A stretch of 64,000 bases of DNA from Bacteroidales bacterium. GTDB lineage: Bacteria > Bacteroidota > Bacteroidia > Bacteroidales > GCA-2748055. Shown in pieces: positions 40,730 to 49,169 of the stretch. The position numbers and the translations under genes were made by a program. The notes under the pieces were generated by a model that searched no databases, was not told where the DNA came from, and was given only the letters and a program-made list of their open reading frames with translations. The DNA lies in NCBI GenBank assembly GCA_029931975.1, contig JAOZQY010000011.1, positions 1 to 64,000 of the forward strand, read 5' to 3'. Every line of letters begins with the position of its first letter. The stretch's first letter is position 1.

Positions 40730-41695
40730 ATGGCCCGGGAATCAAATATTGAAGGCCTAGCAATTGAAGTGAAGGACCTTGTGAGAACTTATGGGGATCT
40801 AACTGCAGTGGACCACCTTTCGCTCAAGGTCAGGCAGGGGGAGGTGTTCGGACTCCTGGGTCCAAATGGAGCAGGTAAGACCACTGCCATCCGAATGATG
40901 TGTGGCCTGCTGAAACCCACATCTGGTGAAGTATATATTAAGGGACATCGGGTTCCTCCGGGGGGAAGCACCAAGGCCAGATCAATGGTGGGTATTTGTC
41001 CCCAGGAGAATATTCTCTGGAGTAAGCTCACCTGCTTTGAGCAGTTGGTATTCAGTGCAAGGATGTATGATGTTCCTCGCAGTTTGGCCCGTGCCAGGGC
41101 CGATCACCTGCTAAAGGAGATGGGGCTGAAGTCAAAGCGGAACAAACTGGCCGCTACACTTTCAGGGGGAATGAAACGTCGTATGAGTGTGATTATGGCC
41201 TTGATGCACGATCCCGAAATCATGGTGTTTGACGAGCCTGAAGCGGGACTTGACCCACAAAGCCGGGTGCTGGTGAGGGATTTTATCAGGGAAATAGCCA
41301 TTGATAAGACGGTGATCGTTACCACTCATAACATGGATGAAGCTGATAGAATCACACACAGGGTAGCCATCATTGATTCGGGCCGACTGCTTCAGCTGGG
41401 TAGCCCAGACAGCTTGAAAAGATCCATTGGAAAAGGAGATGTGATGGAAATGAAGCTCCACATCAGTGATCCCGCAGATCTGTCCGGTGCCATGAAAAAG
41501 CTGAAGGCTAAGGGCTATTCAGTGAAGATGAAGGAGGAAGGCATTGATATCCGTGCTATGCATCTGGTGTCCGGGATCCATGATATTTATCAGGTGCTGG
41601 AGAAGGAAAAAATCTCCATCCAGGAGATGAAGGTTCGTGAAAATACACTGGAAGATGTGTTTATACATCTTACCGGGAAAAGCCTGAGAGGATGA
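40730..41695 (+). CDS. ABC transporter ATP-binding protein
   Basis: The 321-residue ATPase has Walker A GPNGAGKTT (near residue 44), signature LSGGMKRRMSV, Walker B IMVFDEPEAGLDP and switch TTHNMDEADR, plus a C-terminal extension of about 90 residues like DrrA-type exporters. Its stop overlaps the start of the permease gene as ATGA. Note that the D-loop segment is EPEAGLD rather than the usual EPTxGLD. Substrate is unknown. Confidence 0.92.
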   Translation: MARESNIEGLAIEVKDLVRTYGDLTAVDHLSLKVRQGEVFGLLGPNGAGKTTAIRMMCGLLKPTSGEVYIKGHRVPPGGSTKARSMVGICPQENILWSKLTCFEQLVFSARMYDVPRSLARARADHLLKEMGLKSKRNKLAATLSGGMKRRMSVIMALMHDPEIMVFDEPEAGLDPQSRVLVRDFIREIAIDKTVIVTTHNMDEADRITHRVAIIDSGRLLQLGSPDSLKRSIGKGDVMEMKLHISDPADLSGAMKKLKAKGYSVKMKEEGIDIRAMHLVSGIHDIYQVLEKEKISIQEMKVRENTLEDVFIHLTGKSLRG

Positions 41696-42858
41696 AGTGG
41701 TTTGATGTATTTATAAAAGGGATTAAGGAGCAGATACGGGAGTACTGGATCCTTGTGCTTACCCTGTTGATGTCACCGCTTTTTATTGTAATCTATTTCC
41801 TGATGGGTGAAACTGAAGATCCTGTTTATGATGTGATCCTGGTGAATCAGGACAGGGGAAGTGAGTATAAGGGAAAGGCCTTTAATCTGGGCGATTCTAT
41901 TATAAGCTATGCAAAGCTTTTGTCCCTTCCCCTTGACATGGAAATGATGAAGGTTAATACGCTCGAAAGCAGGAAAGATGCTGTTGAAAGATTGCGCAAG
42001 CAAAAGGCAGATGTGGTGGTAGTTCTGCCGGAGGATCTCTCCCTGGCTATTTCCGATACCGCAGTCTCGCTCCATGTGAAGGCAGTAATTGAACTGGTGG
42101 GAGATATTACACATATGGAGTATGTAATTGCTGCAGTCTGGACGGAAGAACTTATTAATTCTTATATACTGGAGGTGGCTGATATCCGGATGCCGGTAGC
42201 ATGGTATGAGACCGCCCTGGGTTATTCGGGTAAGCGTACTTACTTTGAGATTTATGTGCCCGGACTCCTTGTTCTCTCCATAATCATGATTATTTTTTCT
42301 GCTTCTTCAGCCATTGTTCGTGAAGCTGAGATGCGTACGCTGGAACGGCTCAGCATCTCCAGGCTGTCGGCTCTGGAATTTCTTGTGGGTATTTCCCTGG
42401 TCCAGATCCTGGTAGCCATTCTCTCCTTGCTTCTTGCCCTGTTAACTGCCATGATATTGGGCTATACTCTGATCCAGGGAACATTCGGATTCATGCTGCT
42501 GATTTCTGTGCTCACTGCGCTTTCCATGATCAGTTTCAGCCTGCTGGTGGCAGCCATGTGCCGCTCCGTAAAGGAGGTCGCCATCATCGGAACATTCCCG
42601 CTGTTTCTGTTGATGTTTTTCACCGGGGCAGCCTTCCCCGTCAATGGGGGAAAGCTTTTTACCATAGGGGAAAATTCGCTTATGTTGAATGATTTTCTCT
42701 CCCCCAAATTTGCGATTGAAGCTCTGAACAAGGTGCTTATCAGGGGACTGGAAGTGAAGGATGCCATCCCTGAGATGATTGCGCTGATTGTCCTTACACT
42801 GTTCTATTTCCTGACAGGAACCTGGGCCTTCAAACGCAGGCATATGAAGGCACGGTGA
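41692..42858 (+). CDS. ABC-2 family transporter permease
   Basis: The 388-residue protein has one N-terminal helix (about 18-38), a soluble loop of about 140 residues (ILVNQDRGSEYKG and a coiled segment), and five C-terminal helices (about 190-385). This is the YhgE/Pip-like ABC-2 arrangement with a large external loop. It overlaps its ATPase gene by four bases. An exporter is likely; the substrate is not known. It converges on the 1029-residue transporter gene with only five bases between. Confidence 0.9.
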   Translation: MKWFDVFIKGIKEQIREYWILVLTLLMSPLFIVIYFLMGETEDPVYDVILVNQDRGSEYKGKAFNLGDSIISYAKLLSLPLDMEMMKVNTLESRKDAVERLRKQKADVVVVLPEDLSLAISDTAVSLHVKAVIELVGDITHMEYVIAAVWTEELINSYILEVADIRMPVAWYETALGYSGKRTYFEIYVPGLLVLSIIMIIFSASSAIVREAEMRTLERLSISRLSALEFLVGISLVQILVAILSLLLALLTAMILGYTLIQGTFGFMLLISVLTALSMISFSLLVAAMCRSVKEVAIIGTFPLFLLMFFTGAAFPVNGGKLFTIGENSLMLNDFLSPKFAIEALNKVLIRGLEVKDAIPEMIALIVLTLFYFLTGTWAFKRRHMKAR

Positions 42859-42863
42859 TCATT

Positions 42864-45800
42864 TCAGCCTCCTCGGGTAAGCTTCCGGGTTTCTGAGAAA
42901 GTGATCACCTTTCTCAGGAGGTCAGCACGTAGCATCAGGTACATCACCAGGGTATATAACCAGATTATTGAAATGTTGTACCACATGGTGTCAATCTCAA
43001 GATTTCCAAGCTGTTTTGTTGGTGCATAGAGATGAGCCCTTCCAATTCTGGAAGTAGGTTTTTGATAAATGGGTTGATACTTCCTGATCATACGACCATC
43101 TTTTTCAATGACCCTGTCAATCATATTCCGGTTGGTTACCAGGTCGAAGAGGCTCTTGTTGTCATACTTGTTTCGGAATGTAGTATAGGCCTGAATGCTT
43201 CCCAGTTGTTCGAGCAGGGCTTTATCGATCCGGTCCTTCTCACGTTTTGCTTGAATTGTCCTGCTGCGCGACAGGTCACTTACCTGGTTAAGATAGGTAT
43301 GAATCCTGGCAACTACTGAATCGCTGTTTTGCTCCATTTCCTGGCAACCAGCCTCGTATGCAGGGATCTGGGGAATCAGTTTACCCATAGCGGCCAGCTG
43401 CATGTTCAATGTATGCATGTCTTCCTGGATTGCTTCAGTTTCATTTTCCTTGCTTAATTCTTTCTTTAGTTCATCCAGGTTGATCTCCAGTTCAGGGACC
43501 AGGTAGGCCTGCAGGTAGTCTGAATTGCTGATCTCCTGATCAATATCAAAGAATATTTTCTGGTACCTGTTGTGTTTGAACTGCTCCACCGCCAGGGCCT
43601 CATAGGCCCATCGGGAGACCATCATATCGCCAATCACCGGCACCTGCTCGTAGTTAGTCAGGCTTTTATGGAGCTTGTCATATTTTACCAGTACACCGCA
43701 AAAAAGAATCTGTGGTATGAGCAGGAAGGGTACAAGTATGTAAATGGTAATCACAGAATTCAGTCCGGCCGAAATATTCAGTCCCAGCAGGTTGGCAAAA
43801 CAGGATGTGGTGAAAAGAATCAGCCAGTAAGAGAACAGCATTCCCTGGATCTCAAAGATCAGGTTGCCTACAAGCACGTAGGAAAGCGATTGGAAGGCAG
43901 AGATGGCGAACATGATCAGGATCTTGGAGTGCAGGTAAGATCCCCTGCTCAGATTCAGAAATGATTCCCGCTGAATAATCTTCCGGTCCTTAATAATTTC
44001 CTCCGAACTGATGGTCAGCCCCAGGAAGAGGAAAACTACCACACTCATTAGCAGATAGGCAGGGAGGTTTTCGTTGTTGCGAAAAACATAAGCTTCCGGA
44101 TTGTCGGCTGTACCACTGAAATATTTTGTAAAAAAGCCCATGATTACTGCCAGCAGGGGTGCTTCCAGCAGGGTGATCAGAATATACTGCTTGTTGGTGA
44201 GCTTAGAAAGTATGTCCCTGGTAAAAAAGATTTTAATCTGTTTCAGGAGACCTGGAATACTATACTCGTTCTCGGGAAGTTTTTCTTTTTTGGGTGGATC
44301 CCCAATTGATTGTTCAATGGTGCTGATATAGAGATCGGACCACTCCTTCGGACTGACCTTCCTGGTCCGGGAGAGTTTGCCGTACTCATTCACGATCTTC
44401 GCCTCGATGATCTGTAGAACCTGGTCAGGATTAATATTGCCACACCGGCTGCACTGATCCTCATTGGCATTTGCATGGTTGCTTTTGGTTTTAAAGTAAA
44501 CCACAGCTTCAGAGGGGTTCCCACAATAGATTTGATATCCCCCCTTATCCATAAAGATGATGCGATCGAACATCTTGTATAGATTGGATGAGGGTTGGTG
44601 TATATTCACAATTACCAGTTTCCCTTTGAAAACCTGTTCCCGCAGTAGGTTCATGACCATTTCGGAATCGACCGATGAAAGTCCCGATGTAGGTTCATCC
44701 ACAAAGAGGATAGATGGTTCCCTGATTAGTTCCAGGCCGATGTTCACTCTTTTACGCTGGCCTCCGCTGATTACTTTATTGAGGGGCTTTCCAACCTTGA
44801 GATCCCTGATCTCGTATAGATCCAGGTCATGCAATACCAGGTCGACCACTTCATTGAGCTGCCCTTCATCATAGTTGTCCAGGCAAAGCTTTGCATTGTA
44901 ATAGAGGTTCTGCCTGACGGTCAGATCTTCCAGTAAAAGATCGTCCTGGGGAATAAAACCGATGATGCCATTTAATTGTTCCCTCTCTTTTTCATGATAA
45001 AGATTATATCCGTTGATCAGGATTTCCCCCTGCTGAGGCTCAAGGTTTCCATTTAATACATTGAGCAGGGTGGATTTCCCCACACCGCTTCCACCCATGA
45101 TTCCGATCAGTCGGCCCGATTCTTCACTAAGGTTAAATCCATGGATTCCGTTGTTGCTGTTCTTAAAGCGAAACTCCACACTCCTGGCTTCAAAGGTGAT
45201 TCGTGAGCTGAAGTAGGCATCGGAGAATACTCCGGCAACATCTGTGAAGTAGATTGGATTAATCTTTTGTCCCCTGACCGAGGAACCGTGATCGAAAGTA
45301 TAGGTGATGCCAGCCTGTATCAACTGCCCGTTCAGGAACAGGTCTTCCTTCCCCTGGTAGCGCAAGACATAGGTATTAATACTTATAATGTTCAGAAAGT
45401 AGATATCGCCTTCAAGGTGATGATTATGAATATGATGCACCCCCTCAACACCAGCTTCCAGACCATTGTTAACTAGCAATACAGCCTCCTTTACAGGCAT
45501 GTCCTCCAGGGGGTAAACTACAAAGTGGAGAATCTGCTGGTACTCCTCCTCATCAAGGTTGAAAGCTGTTGCCACGGTCTGAAGAAACTCCAGTTCTGTT
45601 TCGCGAATCTCGATCCCGTAAGCAATGTATTCCACCAGCTGTATAATCACATAAATCTTTTGCCGCTGTTCCAGTTCCTCATTAATCTGTTCGCATATGG
45701 AGAGAATTCTCACAGCAGTAAGGGAGGTCCGCTTTTTCCGTTTAACACTCTGTTTATCTATGGGATCATGGTGATAATGTTGGAGGTAATTCTCAAAGAT

Positions 45801-45953
45801 GGCCATGTATTTCTCCGTTAGCTCGCTGTTCAGCTGGCGGGAGAGAAAGGCACGGATAATTTCACGCTCCTTCTCCGAAATCTCCTGTATCTCATCGATA
45901 TCCACAATTAATGCAAAAAGCTGCATCATTGCTTTTAGAATGGCTTCACTCAT
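42864..45953 (-). CDS. TerB-like/ABCG fused half-transporter
   Basis: The 1029-residue protein has a helical N-terminal part (about 1-150) resembling TerB-like domains, a small beta-rich part (about 180-270, possibly FHA-like), an ABCG-type ATPase with Walker A GGSGVGKS (287-294), signature ISGGQRKR (396-403), Walker B ILFVDEPTSGLSS, and a CSRC cysteine pair (Cys501, Cys504). A six-helix ABC2-type membrane part follows, interrupted by a long helical external loop (about 830-960). One more membrane segment lies near the C-terminus. It is divergent from siaB-siaC-like genes, with 83 bp between, suggesting that the switch regulates this transporter. Substrate is unknown. Confidence 0.82.
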   Translation of the reverse strand: MSEAILKAMMQLFALIVDIDEIQEISEKEREIIRAFLSRQLNSELTEKYMAIFENYLQHYHHDPIDKQSVKRKKRTSLTAVRILSICEQINEELEQRQKIYVIIQLVEYIAYGIEIRETELEFLQTVATAFNLDEEEYQQILHFVVYPLEDMPVKEAVLLVNNGLEAGVEGVHHIHNHHLEGDIYFLNIISINTYVLRYQGKEDLFLNGQLIQAGITYTFDHGSSVRGQKINPIYFTDVAGVFSDAYFSSRITFEARSVEFRFKNSNNGIHGFNLSEESGRLIGIMGGSGVGKSTLLNVLNGNLEPQQGEILINGYNLYHEKEREQLNGIIGFIPQDDLLLEDLTVRQNLYYNAKLCLDNYDEGQLNEVVDLVLHDLDLYEIRDLKVGKPLNKVISGGQRKRVNIGLELIREPSILFVDEPTSGLSSVDSEMVMNLLREQVFKGKLVIVNIHQPSSNLYKMFDRIIFMDKGGYQIYCGNPSEAVVYFKTKSNHANANEDQCSRCGNINPDQVLQIIEAKIVNEYGKLSRTRKVSPKEWSDLYISTIEQSIGDPPKKEKLPENEYSIPGLLKQIKIFFTRDILSKLTNKQYILITLLEAPLLAVIMGFFTKYFSGTADNPEAYVFRNNENLPAYLLMSVVVFLFLGLTISSEEIIKDRKIIQRESFLNLSRGSYLHSKILIMFAISAFQSLSYVLVGNLIFEIQGMLFSYWLILFTTSCFANLLGLNISAGLNSVITIYILVPFLLIPQILFCGVLVKYDKLHKSLTNYEQVPVIGDMMVSRWAYEALAVEQFKHNRYQKIFFDIDQEISNSDYLQAYLVPELEINLDELKKELSKENETEAIQEDMHTLNMQLAAMGKLIPQIPAYEAGCQEMEQNSDSVVARIHTYLNQVSDLSRSRTIQAKREKDRIDKALLEQLGSIQAYTTFRNKYDNKSLFDLVTNRNMIDRVIEKDGRMIRKYQPIYQKPTSRIGRAHLYAPTKQLGNLEIDTMWYNISIIWLYTLVMYLMLRADLLRKVITFSETRKLTRGG

Positions 45954-46036
45954 GTTTTATTGCTTCTATACGAATATATTCAATTTAAAGTGCTTCCTCT
46001 CTGAATGTGCTTTTTTTTTCTTATTTTGACTCTCTA

Positions 46037-46549
46037 ATGGCCGAAGGAAAGATTATAATCGATTTTGAGGGTGCTATATCTTTTGAGATCATGGAACAGC
46101 TACTTAACGAGTTGAAGTCGGCCAAGCAGTTTAATGAACTCAAAAAGTCTGTCAGGAAACGGGTATATGGTACCGTGGTTGAATCGATTGATAATATTTT
46201 CAAGTATGCTGCAATTGTTCATGGCAAGGTAAAAGTGCTGCAGAGACCCCCTATGATCATGGTCAAAGAAAATGAAGGGATATTTGTTGTAAGCGCAGGA
46301 AACCTTGTCCAGAACGAGCAGATAGACGATCTGAGGTTTAAGCTCAACCGCGTGAACCAGATGGACGATGAGGCACTGAAATCGCTTTATGAAGAGGTGA
46401 TCAATAAAGAAACTTCTGAAGAGGACCGGGGAGCCGGTCTCGGACTGATCACCATGGCTTTGCGAACGAACGAAAATATCCGCTTCACTTTTGATCCGGC
46501 TGGTCCGGCGCATTCCTATTTTACAATGCATATAACAATTAAAGATTGA
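46037..46549 (+). CDS. SiaB-family protein kinase (DUF6272)
   Basis: The ATG at 46037 gives 170 residues; a GTG ten codons earlier would add a phenylalanine-rich leader and is less likely. The protein has a GHKL-like layout: an N-box-like ESIDNIFKYA (residues 49-58) and a G-box DRGAGLGLITMAL (about 136-148). In Pseudomonas, SiaB phosphorylates SiaC in a SpoIIE-type partner switch. The next gene is the SiaC homologue three bases away, and the phosphatase is the convergent gene. An unlinked target in the switch is possible, or the divergent transporter. Confidence 0.82.
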   Translation: MAEGKIIIDFEGAISFEIMEQLLNELKSAKQFNELKKSVRKRVYGTVVESIDNIFKYAAIVHGKVKVLQRPPMIMVKENEGIFVVSAGNLVQNEQIDDLRFKLNRVNQMDDEALKSLYEEVINKETSEEDRGAGLGLITMALRTNENIRFTFDPAGPAHSYFTMHITIKD

Positions 46550-46552
46550 CCA

Positions 46553-46951
46553 ATGGAAAAGTTAATTATCGAACCAACGGCAAATTCACCACGAATTTTA
46601 CTGGATCCGGAAGAAAGGAATTTTGAATTCTCGGGCGAATCACGACCTGAGAATGTACGTAAGTTTTATTTGCCTGTATTGGAGTGGATGGAAGCTTATA
46701 CGGAGGGAGTGGCAGGTCTCAAGGAGGATCAGCGTCCATCCAGTCTGAAGTGCATGTTTAATTTCGAATACTTTAACTCGACCTCTGCCAAGTATATACT
46801 GGATATATTTAAATCATTAAATGCGATCCATGCCCTGGGTATTGGACTGGATATCAAGTGGCTTTATGAAGAGGATGATGAAGATATGCTGGAAGTGGGA
46901 CAGGAGATGTCACGGATGTCGAAGCTGGAATTTGAATATATTATATCCTGA
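46553..46951 (+). CDS. SiaC-family regulatory phosphoprotein (DUF1987)
   Basis: The 132-residue protein matches the SiaC/DUF1987 pattern: an N-terminal strand pair with SPRILLDPEERNFEFSGESR, a helix with PVLEWMEAY, and the conserved CMFNFEYFNSTSAKYIL (about 67-83), whose Ser76/Thr77/Ser78 cluster holds the likely phosphoacceptor. In Pseudomonas SiaC the unphosphorylated form activates a diguanylate cyclase. No such cyclase is in this window, so the target here is unknown. Its stop overlaps the convergent phosphatase gene by 11 bases. Confidence 0.85.
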   Translation: MEKLIIEPTANSPRILLDPEERNFEFSGESRPENVRKFYLPVLEWMEAYTEGVAGLKEDQRPSSLKCMFNFEYFNSTSAKYILDIFKSLNAIHALGIGLDIKWLYEEDDEDMLEVGQEMSRMSKLEFEYIIS

Positions 46952-49169
46952 GCCCCATTACCAGGACATCATCAATCTGCTCCACCTCACCCTGCCATGC
47001 TGCTAATTTCTCTATCAGGATTGCTTTTTGTTTTTCCATTGGCCGATCCTGAATTTCCAACAGCAGCTTCCTGAAGTTAAGGACCCTGAAAGTTTTCCTG
47101 AGTGGTCCTCCCAGCTGGTCCACATACCCATCCGAGAAAAGGTATATGGAATCGCCTTTTTCCAGCTTGAGGCTATGGCTTGTAAACGCAAGTGGTTCTT
47201 GCTCATAGATCCCAATGGGCATACGGTCGGGACGTATATGTATAACAATTCCGTCTCTGACCAGGTAGAGGGGCCGGTTTGCCCCTGCGTATTCCATGGA
47301 CTTATGTTTCAGGTCGATTACACAAAGAGCAATCTCAATACCATCCTGAGCCTCATCCCTGGTGCCGGTCTGGTGGAGTGATGTAATCACCACTTCTCTA
47401 AGTTGCTCAAGTATCTTCCCCGGATTCAGAACCTTGCTCCGGTTCACAATCTCATTCATGGAGGAGATCCCCAGCATGCTCAGGAAGCCTCCTGGAACTC
47501 CATGACCCGTGCAATCAGCCACGGCCACCAGGAGTTTATTATCCTTCTCTCTGGACCAGTAGTAATCTCCGCTTACAATATCCCTGGGTTTGAAGAGGAT
47601 GAAATGATCGGACAGATGCTCTTTTAACACCTGGGCCGGAGGGAGGATGGCTGCTTGTATCCTTTCGGCATAACGGATACTATCCAGAATAAGCTCTTTC
47701 TGGTTTGATATGGTGTCTCTTTGTAAGGTGGTCAGGTCGAGCTGAGCTTCAATCTCTTCTTTCTGGGTCTCAATTTCCTCCTTCTGTTCTACAACCTCCC
47801 GGGTTCTCTCTTCTACTTTCGTCTCAAGATCTCTGTTCATGGATGAGATGCTCGCCACATAATTGTGGATCTTTTGAGTCATCTCATTGTATCCCTCGGC
47901 CAGCTCCCCGATTTCGTCATCGGTACGTACAATGGTAAATTGTTCTTTCTCACCGCCCCTGGTATTCCGGATGTTGGCCAGCAGTTCCTTCACCGGACGG
48001 GTAATATCCTGGTTGGTCCATCGCACAAAGAGCAGCAGGTAAATAAAGGAGATTAAAATACCGTTTCCAATTCCCACCAGCATCACAATGGAATCGATGG
48101 CATTAACATAAAAGAGCTTTTCATATTCCTTCGCTTCAACAGTTTCCTGATCCTTATTTGCTATTTCGCTCCACTGTCCGATCAGAATCTCCCGGTGCTC
48201 TCTGGTAAAGTTCTCCTGTTTCAGGTCTTTGACAGCGGTCAGGCTCAGGAAGAGGTAGACCATCACAATCAGGAGGGGAAGGAAAGTGGTAATTCCACTG
48301 GCTACCATCAGGCGGTTACGGATCTTTCCTCCTTTTTTTCGGCTTACCTGTTTCCTTAGCTCCTCAGGAGAAAATATCTTATCGATATAGCGCATATGAA
48401 CCCTGTGCTTTTGCCAGTAATAGACGAAGAGGAACTCCAGGGCTGTTGCCACAATGGTCAGGTAGTGCAGCTGGATAAACATGCTTCGTTCAAGTTCCTT
48501 GTCAAAGCTTTCTTTTGTCACCAGGAAAATGAGGGAATAAATCAAGACCACAATATTGGGCATGGTTACAATCAGGCTGTTGATAATGGGAGTTTGAAAC
48601 AAGCCTTTTTTACAACGTCCATGCAATCTTTCCGGGATCTCCCTCCTTCTTCGTTTCAATTTGAAGTAGTGCTTGAACGGACGGTTGTAAATATAGCCAA
48701 GCACATCACTGACGATCAAGAGCAGGAAGAGTAGTGCAAAATAGCGGGCAAAAGGCCCTTTTTCCTGAAAAATTTTGAAAGGGTCTTCCTCGGGCGGTGG
48801 TGGAGTATCCCCATCCTTAAGGGCTATGCCAACTCTTCCATGATTATCAGGAGGAGGAGTTCCAATATCAATATCCTGCTCTGGTAAGGGGATGGAATCA
48901 GGAAAGTTCCCGCTCATCCGGATGGTCATGTTTACCAGGCTGTCGATTTCATCCTCACTGAATATCCGCGTAGAATCCATTGCAGCTGTTATGGAATCCC
49001 TGATGGCCATCGTCTGCTCCAGACGGGGCTGCGGATTATTTCTGATAAAAGTGGGTATGTTCTGGTAGACTATAAATCCGATAAAGGGAATGACCAGAAA
49101 AAAATAGAGCATCACCGAAGTCACATAGATTCGGAACCCGTAATATATAGGAGTAGTTTTTATTTCCAT
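46941..49169 (-). CDS. SpoIIE-type serine phosphatase with membrane sensor (SiaA-like)
   Basis: The 742-residue protein has an N-terminal helix (about 17-37), a periplasmic segment rich in Asp and Pro (DIDIGTPPPDNHG), several membrane helices, a HAMP domain (TRPVKELLANIRNTRGGEKE), a long coiled coil (QKEEIETQKEEIEAQLDLTTL) and a C-terminal PP2C/SpoIIE domain with metal ligands in VAVADCTGHGVPGG and LFSDGYVDQLGG. By the Sia model it would dephosphorylate the SiaC-like protein encoded opposite. The multi-helix sensor differs from the usual two-helix HAMP phosphatases. Confidence 0.9.
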   Translation of the reverse strand: MEIKTTPIYYGFRIYVTSVMLYFFLVIPFIGFIVYQNIPTFIRNNPQPRLEQTMAIRDSITAAMDSTRIFSEDEIDSLVNMTIRMSGNFPDSIPLPEQDIDIGTPPPDNHGRVGIALKDGDTPPPPEEDPFKIFQEKGPFARYFALLFLLLIVSDVLGYIYNRPFKHYFKLKRRRREIPERLHGRCKKGLFQTPIINSLIVTMPNIVVLIYSLIFLVTKESFDKELERSMFIQLHYLTIVATALEFLFVYYWQKHRVHMRYIDKIFSPEELRKQVSRKKGGKIRNRLMVASGITTFLPLLIVMVYLFLSLTAVKDLKQENFTREHREILIGQWSEIANKDQETVEAKEYEKLFYVNAIDSIVMLVGIGNGILISFIYLLLFVRWTNQDITRPVKELLANIRNTRGGEKEQFTIVRTDDEIGELAEGYNEMTQKIHNYVASISSMNRDLETKVEERTREVVEQKEEIETQKEEIEAQLDLTTLQRDTISNQKELILDSIRYAERIQAAILPPAQVLKEHLSDHFILFKPRDIVSGDYYWSREKDNKLLVAVADCTGHGVPGGFLSMLGISSMNEIVNRSKVLNPGKILEQLREVVITSLHQTGTRDEAQDGIEIALCVIDLKHKSMEYAGANRPLYLVRDGIVIHIRPDRMPIGIYEQEPLAFTSHSLKLEKGDSIYLFSDGYVDQLGGPLRKTFRVLNFRKLLLEIQDRPMEKQKAILIEKLAAWQGEVEQIDDVLVMGLRI

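Follow-up and report, generated by a model that had tools for sequence, protein, structure and literature searches.

The locus described here raises the question of what a SiaABC-type switch controls when no diguanylate cyclase, the biofilm signaling enzyme that this kind of switch is so far known to control, lies beside it. It occupies positions 42864 to 49169 of a 64,000-nucleotide stretch of a Bacteroidales genome (GenBank assembly GCA_029931975.1, contig JAOZQY010000011.1), which we call the window. In the passages we drew on from the SiaC papers, one SiaC target is described, a diguanylate cyclase (PMC7647112, PMC8457831). Open reading frame (ORF) calls recovered four genes where an initial annotation had placed them: a SiaB-like kinase, a SiaC-like phosphoprotein, a SpoIIE phosphatase, and a divergently transcribed half-transporter with a TerB- and FHA-like head (TerB-FHA-ABCG). 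We consider it reasonably probable that this is a SiaABC-type switch whose dedicated receiver is the transporter and not the diguanylate cyclase SiaD.

The switch genes were assigned by family models. The SiaB-like protein (170 residues; positions 46037 to 46549, plus strand) matched DUF6272 in Pfam (E = 9.7e-32) and the NCBIfam model NF038262, “SiaB family protein kinase,” at 131.3 bits against a cutoff of 85. It also aligned with the solved SiaB chain 6kko_A (E = 3.8e-13) and has the N-box Glu and Asn and the G-box glycines. The longest ORF runs from a GTG at 46007 to 46549 on the plus strand; relatives of 170 residues at loci L159 to L163 suggest that translation actually begins at the ATG at 46037. 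As initially noted, the SiaC-like ORF (132 residues; 46553 to 46951, plus strand) begins three bases past the SiaB-like ORF. Its product matched PF09345 (E = 3e-31; 108 bits against a cutoff of 24.5) and the solved SiaC chain 6kko_C (E = 1.7e-8). Thr68 of SiaC was identified through the peptide LLYLNTSSIK (PMC7647112). Ser76 of the window protein occupies this column, which holds Thr in 108 and Ser in 34 of 142 SiaC frames (duplicates included). The SiaA-like membrane phosphatase (742 residues; 46941 to 49169, minus strand) is convergent with the SiaC gene, with a 3′ overlap of 11 bases. It has HAMP (E = 8.4e-6) and SpoIIE (E = 7.4e-24) matches above the Pfam cutoffs, the motifs DIVSGD, ADCTGHG, FSDGYVD, and DDVLVMG, and six hydrophobic stretches.

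All three window proteins scored below the equivalog models for Pseudomonas SiaA, SiaB, and SiaC (NF038263, NF038264, and NF038265; 224.6 bits against 700, 75.4 against 225, and 66.6 against 150, respectively). Judged by these scores, they belong to the same wider families as Pseudomonas SiaABC and are not the same proteins. We infer that the window genes form a SiaABC-type switch, with kinase and phosphatase activities predicted from the catalytic motifs.

The divergent neighbor (1029 residues; 42864 to 45953, minus strand) fits the TerB-like/ABCG fusion that had been proposed, with the ABC domains above and the TerB match below the Pfam cutoffs. An ABC nucleotide-binding domain (NBD; ABC_tran, E = 4.5e-30; residues 271 to 423, positions 44685 to 45143) is followed in a single chain by an ABC2 membrane domain (ABC2_membrane, E = 9.8e-21; residues 572 to 763, positions 43665 to 44240), the arrangement that defines the ABCG type, with transmembrane-like stretches between residues 589 and 758. 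ABCG2 aligned to residues 282 to 763 without interruption (E = 2.4e-38), and the Walker A (residue 287), signature (396), and Walker B (418) motifs are all intact. The cysteine pair remarked on initially is a family trait: of 161 distinct full-length relatives, 157 have the CxxCGN motif (residues 501 to 506, positions 44436 to 44453).

We modeled the head (residues 1 to 260) with AlphaFold2 from an alignment of 37 relatives (A1), obtaining a mean predicted local distance difference test score (pLDDT) of 85 and a predicted template modeling score of 0.79. Residues 1 to 146 (45516 to 45953) are helical in the model; TerB (PF05099) matched residues 8 to 141 at E = 6e-4, with 20.5 bits against a cutoff of 24.4. 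The best VIA match to this part was 2h5n_D, from Porphyromonas gingivalis PG1108 (Z = 8.4 over 119 residues; root mean square deviation, 3.5), which we take to be TerB-like; the tellurite resistance protein 2ou3 also matched the head model (Z = 6.4). The suspected beta-sandwich, at about residues 155 to 245 (45219 to 45491), modeled well. Its top Foldseek rows were mainly FHA domains (E = 0.02 to 0.06), and FHA chains made up most VIA rows at Z = 6 to 7.4, all under 8. No FHA family matched the 1029-residue protein in Pfam at an E of 1 or less, a Protein Data Bank sequence search with the head profile gave nothing at an E of 5 or less, and the phosphothreonine-binding residues of a canonical FHA domain were not apparent by eye in A1. 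Because the fold scores are middling and no Pfam FHA match was obtained, we speak of an FHA-like fold, which is probably degenerate.

The initial annotation had linked switch and transporter by position only, at this one locus. The refutation that it had named, switch and transporter genes lying apart in other genomes, did not come about: numerous genomes have the two side by side, in one of three layouts, and their co-occurrence extends across the order. In a sample of 295 genomes of the order, with SiaC defined by PF09345 and the transporter by its N terminus, at least 51 of the 114 genomes that have both carry a SiaC gene no more than 3 kb from a transporter (43 through fetched loci and 8 through match positions, not every copy being examined). 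A separate draw of 247 genomes across the phylum, which includes the window's genome, gave an adjacent pair in all five transporter genomes. SiaB or SiaC lay within 3 kb at 44 of 81 transporter loci (the window and 80 fetched), a fraction biased upward because the loci came from high-scoring matches and the last 20 included some with a SiaC neighbor already known. A second set comprised the 80 best-ranked among at least 570 loci, from genomes nearly all titled as Bacteroidota groups, with one Chlorobiota. At the 15 loci in this set nearest the window (L159 to L173; head identity, 46 to 77%), SiaC or SiaB was within 255 bp in every case, and L159 to L163 retain the complete window arrangement, phosphatase included.

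Since the two sets overlap (L041, for example, is L162), pairs were deduplicated by sequence; L096, linked through SiaB alone, was excluded. The 79 distinct linked pairs fell into 49 convergent, 16 divergent, and 14 operon layouts, with SiaB within 1.5 kb in 74, and the operon form runs phosphatase-SiaB-SiaC-transporter. The window's own genome holds each layout once: divergent in the window, convergent at L039, and operon at L253. By their transporters, these pairs sort into a convergent group of 47, an operon group of 14, and the window's group of 18 (16 divergent and 2 convergent), and a separate transporter tree also resolved these groups. Nine genomes each carry two or three linked pairs. 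In the SiaC tree, which has few columns and a long-branch warning, all 18 SiaC proteins of the window lineage nevertheless grouped in a single clade (support, 99/93; recovered in each of 200 bootstrap trees) and all 14 operon SiaC proteins in another (support, 80/89; 79% of bootstrap trees); convergent SiaC was intermixed with unlinked SiaC. SiaC and transporter distances correlated at r = 0.83, against a best value of 0.20 in 2000 permutations, which linkage alone could give. The lineages of SiaC and transporter match.

Linked genes are inherited together, and in that sense the neighborhood could be chance or the functionless relic of one old arrangement. However, the three layouts occur in separate transporter lineages and all three within one genome, the co-occurrence holds also where the genes are unlinked, and about 8 SiaC copies per 4-Mb genome would place SiaC within 3 kb of only about 2% of transporters by chance. 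We give chance or inert inheritance almost no credence and reject chance adjacency at the level of gene association.

Across the 295 genomes, SiaC was present in 122 and the transporter N terminus in 123; 114 genomes, spanning 50 families, had both, 8 had SiaC only, 9 the transporter only, and 164 neither (Fisher P = 6e-60, uncorrected for relatedness). Copy numbers in the 114 genomes were correlated (Spearman, 0.67, with SiaC counted among the matches listed). SiaC is strongly multiplied in the order, many genomes having at least 14 scored matches. In the phylum draw, 14 of 247 genomes had SiaC. Five had the transporter, namely the window's genome and four more of its class, and each of these five has SiaC; the other nine SiaC genomes, all of other classes, had no transporter match at an E of 1e-10 or less. 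Taken together, the functional link between switch and transporter is strong.

Adjacency and co-occurrence demonstrate that the two are functionally linked, not that they touch. Switch and transporter could serve one response as coexpressed or coinherited neighbors that never touch, with SiaC acting on an unlinked target, and many SiaC copies are indeed not beside a transporter. We regard this as unlikely, although it carries appreciable weight. Against it, the commonest layout is convergent (the 49 pairs above), which provides neither a common promoter nor a common transcript; a further argument comes from the place that SiaD occupies elsewhere.

The initial annotation found no diguanylate cyclase. 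This is true of the window's contig, which has no GGDEF match; the only GGDEF match in the genome, a weak one of 27.5 bits, is on another contig. GGDEF was found in 13 of the 295 genomes and was absent from 117 of the 122 SiaC genomes, the window's genome being among the remaining 5 through that single match. At L239 and L242, in another class, the genes run phosphatase-SiaB-SiaC-GGDEF. The L239 protein scored about equally with PleD (173.9 bits) and SiaD (172.9 bits; equivalog cutoff, 290), and that of L242 was recognized from its GGDEF motif only. In the operon form, the transporter occupies the position held by these GGDEF proteins. Two further loci have, after SiaC, a gene that starts with a SiaD-like stalk (L240:2022-3065 and L241:8090-9154), continuing at L240 as a histidine kinase; by sequence, these are possible other SiaC receivers. 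We read five of the eight SiaC-only genomes of the order, and in all five a stalk-plus-hydrophobic protein directly follows SiaC (L135:5208-5774, L136:8478-9002, L137:7916-8467, L138:5609-6139, and L154:2079-2564).

An alignment of the stalks (A3) has the motif ISDRxQxKL. In SiaD, R80, S82, D83, R84, Y85, Q86, and M88 contact SiaC, and S82 and Q86 bond to Thr68 (PMC8457831); the A3 motif fits these residues in sequence. Rows of A3 came from nine of ten SiaC loci of other classes, the tenth (L244) having no stalk-like gene after SiaC, and from SiaC-only genomes of the order. Searched against the 295 genomes at an E of 1e-4 or less, A3 matched 7 of the 8 genomes with SiaC only and 4 of the 114 that also have the transporter (Fisher P = 4e-8 for this difference), and it matched no genome among the 173 that lack SiaC. 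Five of those seven had supplied rows to A3, so that G099 and G134 are independent. The four transporter genomes with a stalk gave weaker matches, adjoining SiaC in G170 and G263. From the A3 and head counts it follows that a transporter head, a stalk, or both are present in 121 of the 122 SiaC genomes. The window's genome has no stalk match at this threshold and lies outside SiaABCD. Because GGDEF is rare in SiaC genomes and a stalk protein replaces the transporter at other SiaC loci, we read the switch as wired to the transporter. For mere neighbors without contact, the stalk pattern, rare beside the transporter and present without it, would be surprising; it is what is expected of a receiver.

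The information could also flow the other way: the TerB-FHA head would let the transporter sense load or substrate, and the transporter would then tune SiaB or the phosphatase. The sensor part of the phosphatase does differ between linked loci (for the window protein, HAMP and hydrophobic stretches; at L107, PAS and GAF; at L168, RyR) and the transporter head remains alignable, and at L206 transporter and phosphatase are adjacent on the same strand. However, the phosphatases scanned carry sensor parts of their own, and what follows SiaC in other classes looks like an output (GGDEF, stalk-histidine kinase, or another stalk protein). We consider this reverse flow improbable. The RyR phosphatase (L168:7570-9402) lies beside SiaC and transporter, and L169, L170, and L172 are similar by length and place; at these four loci SiaC is followed by the SpoIIE phosphatase, and SiaB was not found near. 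Other variants of the switch genes include a natural SiaB-SiaC fusion in a single frame of 303 residues (L171:814-1725), a 385-residue protein carrying two DUF6272 stretches (L202:17766-18923), and, upstream of the phosphatase in the operon forms L250 to L252, genes that by eye are CheR- and CheB-like.

Returning to the transporter as receiver, we examined the face that SiaC would offer it. In Pseudomonas, unphosphorylated SiaC binds and activates SiaD through its stalk, the phospho-site loop of SiaC inserting between the SiaD stalks; once SiaB has phosphorylated SiaC, this no longer happens (PMC8457831). In all 79 linked SiaC proteins, Y65, N67, and T/S68 of this loop are conserved, as is an acidic residue (Asp or Glu) at 110. 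A docking face shared by linked and Pseudomonas SiaC is plausible from these sequences. On the other side of the proposed contact, we tried the head as a disguised SiaD stalk and rejected it: profile comparison was empty, giving a probability of 0.4% and aligning a different region, which also counts in favor of the absence of contact. Head residues 84 to 94 (L.IC..IN..L) slightly resemble the stalk motif (ISDR.Q..L). Because the head is not a detectable stalk homolog, any SiaC docking site on it must differ from the stalk.

In the mechanism we propose, the membrane HAMP-SpoIIE protein would sense a signal and dephosphorylate SiaC, and SiaB would phosphorylate SiaC at Ser76, which corresponds to Thr68 in Pseudomonas. 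If SiaC behaves as it does toward SiaD, its unphosphorylated form would use the surface next to the phospho-site to dock onto the cytoplasmic TerB-FHA head; once docked, it would set the activity or assembly of the transporter, whether by activating or by inhibiting it, and phosphorylation would release it. As for the initial proposal that the switch controls the transporter directly, the wiring is now backed by adjacency, co-occurrence, and replacement in the SiaD slot, while direct control (SiaC docking, its sign, and transport as the controlled output) is what we infer.

Several findings weigh against a dedicated transporter receiver, in addition to the empty head-stalk comparison. Among the other positions that contact SiaD in Pseudomonas, residue 103 is Asp in all 79 linked SiaC proteins (Arg in Pseudomonas), residue 79 is Lys in 65 of the 79 (Asp in Pseudomonas), and Leu107 is replaced by Ala, Val, or Thr. 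In five stalk-linked SiaC proteins of the order, position 103 is Glu and position 107 is Thr; because stalk-linked Bacteroidota SiaC proteins differ there too, the changed positions do not clearly distinguish receivers. In genome context, 37 of the 81 transporter loci lacked SiaB and SiaC within 3 kb, as did 53 of the 80 in the second set (27 had one), many on short contigs. L174, ranked next after the 15 loci nearest the window, has neither gene nearby, and SiaB was absent from the 1.5-kb range in 5 of the 79 pairs. In the window's own genome, only three of five transporter copies and three of six SiaC copies are linked, the unlinked ones being transporters L257 and L258 and SiaC L254 to L256. 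SiaC is missing from nine genomes that have the transporter, and a profile search recovered the transporter again in each of them, in open frames of 636 to 1062 residues. In many genomes, SiaC copies outnumber transporters, and the co-occurrence and tree-distance tests are uncorrected for shared ancestry. Because of the unlinked copies, the nine SiaC-less genomes, and the surplus of SiaC, the switch may also act on other targets, and some of the transporters may be controlled differently. At nine loci chosen as having SiaC distant from transporters, a transporter lay within a few genes after all.

Another reading is control of transcription, with SiaC working like an anti-anti-sigma factor and the transporter gene among those that the switch would control. 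SiaC is structurally nearest to anti-sigma-factor antagonists (PMC7647112). Eight window proteins were scanned and gave no sigma or anti-sigma family, a weak argument; the recurrent neighbors of the 81 loci were identified only partly. We think transcriptional control very improbable.

Beyond the window, we consider it an even chance that SiaABC serves generally as a switch core whose receivers can be exchanged, the main one in Bacteroidia being TerB-FHA-ABCG gated directly by SiaC and those in other classes being SiaD-like cyclases, a stalk-histidine kinase, and other stalk proteins. DUF1987 proteins have been suggested to commonly modulate adjacent proteins (PMC8457831). The transporter would be a widespread candidate for a second SiaC target, in an order with GGDEF in only the 13 genomes noted above. 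If this is true, the transporter family gains a role, and Ser/Thr phospho-switching becomes linked to membrane transport in Bacteroidota.

Some features of the surroundings were recorded in passing. A helical lipoprotein of about 300 residues lies within 4 kb of the transporter at 36 of the 81 loci (for example, L058:8101-9054 and L093:10935-11945, with 34 more transporter-centered loci; also L253:420-1319), often with a small secreted protein. The lipoproteins scanned matched no known family, and a model (pLDDT, 86) gave no convincing fold match (best VIA Z, 7.4); they are possibly hardware of the transporter. Of the unlinked transporter copies in the window's genome, one is split into short frames and looks broken (L257:8610-9990, contig C312), and the other, at L258, lies behind what by eye is a receiver-plus-kinase gene. 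In the window, the divergent region between transporter and SiaB spans 45954 to 46036 (83 bp if SiaB starts at 46037); TANNTTTG had no match in L003, which covers this region, where 2.25 were expected by chance. A two-gene ABC-2 exporter (40730 to 42858) is convergent with the TerB-FHA-ABCG gene, the 3′ ends being 5 bases apart.

We know of no phospho-partner switch that gates an ABC transporter through protein contact. Among open-access PMC papers, judged by titles and the starts of abstracts, we found no description of a SiaABC switch paired with an ABCG transporter. Among the closest known systems is SiaABCD of Pseudomonas aeruginosa, which, as described in the passages drawn on, shares the SiaB kinase, the Thr/Ser site of SiaC at the start of helix alpha2, and the SpoIIE/PP2C-type phosphatase (PMC7647112, PMC8457831). 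The A-B-C-receiver order also recurs in the operon-form relatives L107 and L253. Here, in contrast, the proposed receiver is an ABC transporter instead of SiaD, the window genes fall under the equivalog cutoffs in a divergent order, and the site is a Ser. Nearest in concept is Rv1747 of Mycobacterium tuberculosis, an ABC exporter that carries FHA domains and whose gene shares an operon with pknF, which encodes a Ser/Thr protein kinase (PMC3908365, PMC5549992). It differs in having two FHA domains, as opposed to TerB and one FHA-like fold without a Pfam FHA match, and in its regulators, which in the window are a SiaB kinase, SiaC, and a phosphatase. Rv1747 is not known to have a TerB domain, and PknF is a Hanks-type kinase; the SiaB kinase is presumably of the GHKL type. 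With eukaryotic ABCG half-transporters, the window protein shares the order of nucleotide-binding and transmembrane domains, and it differs from them in its TerB-FHA head, in the CxxCGN motif between these domains, and in a long region (about residues 764 to 990) before the C terminus.

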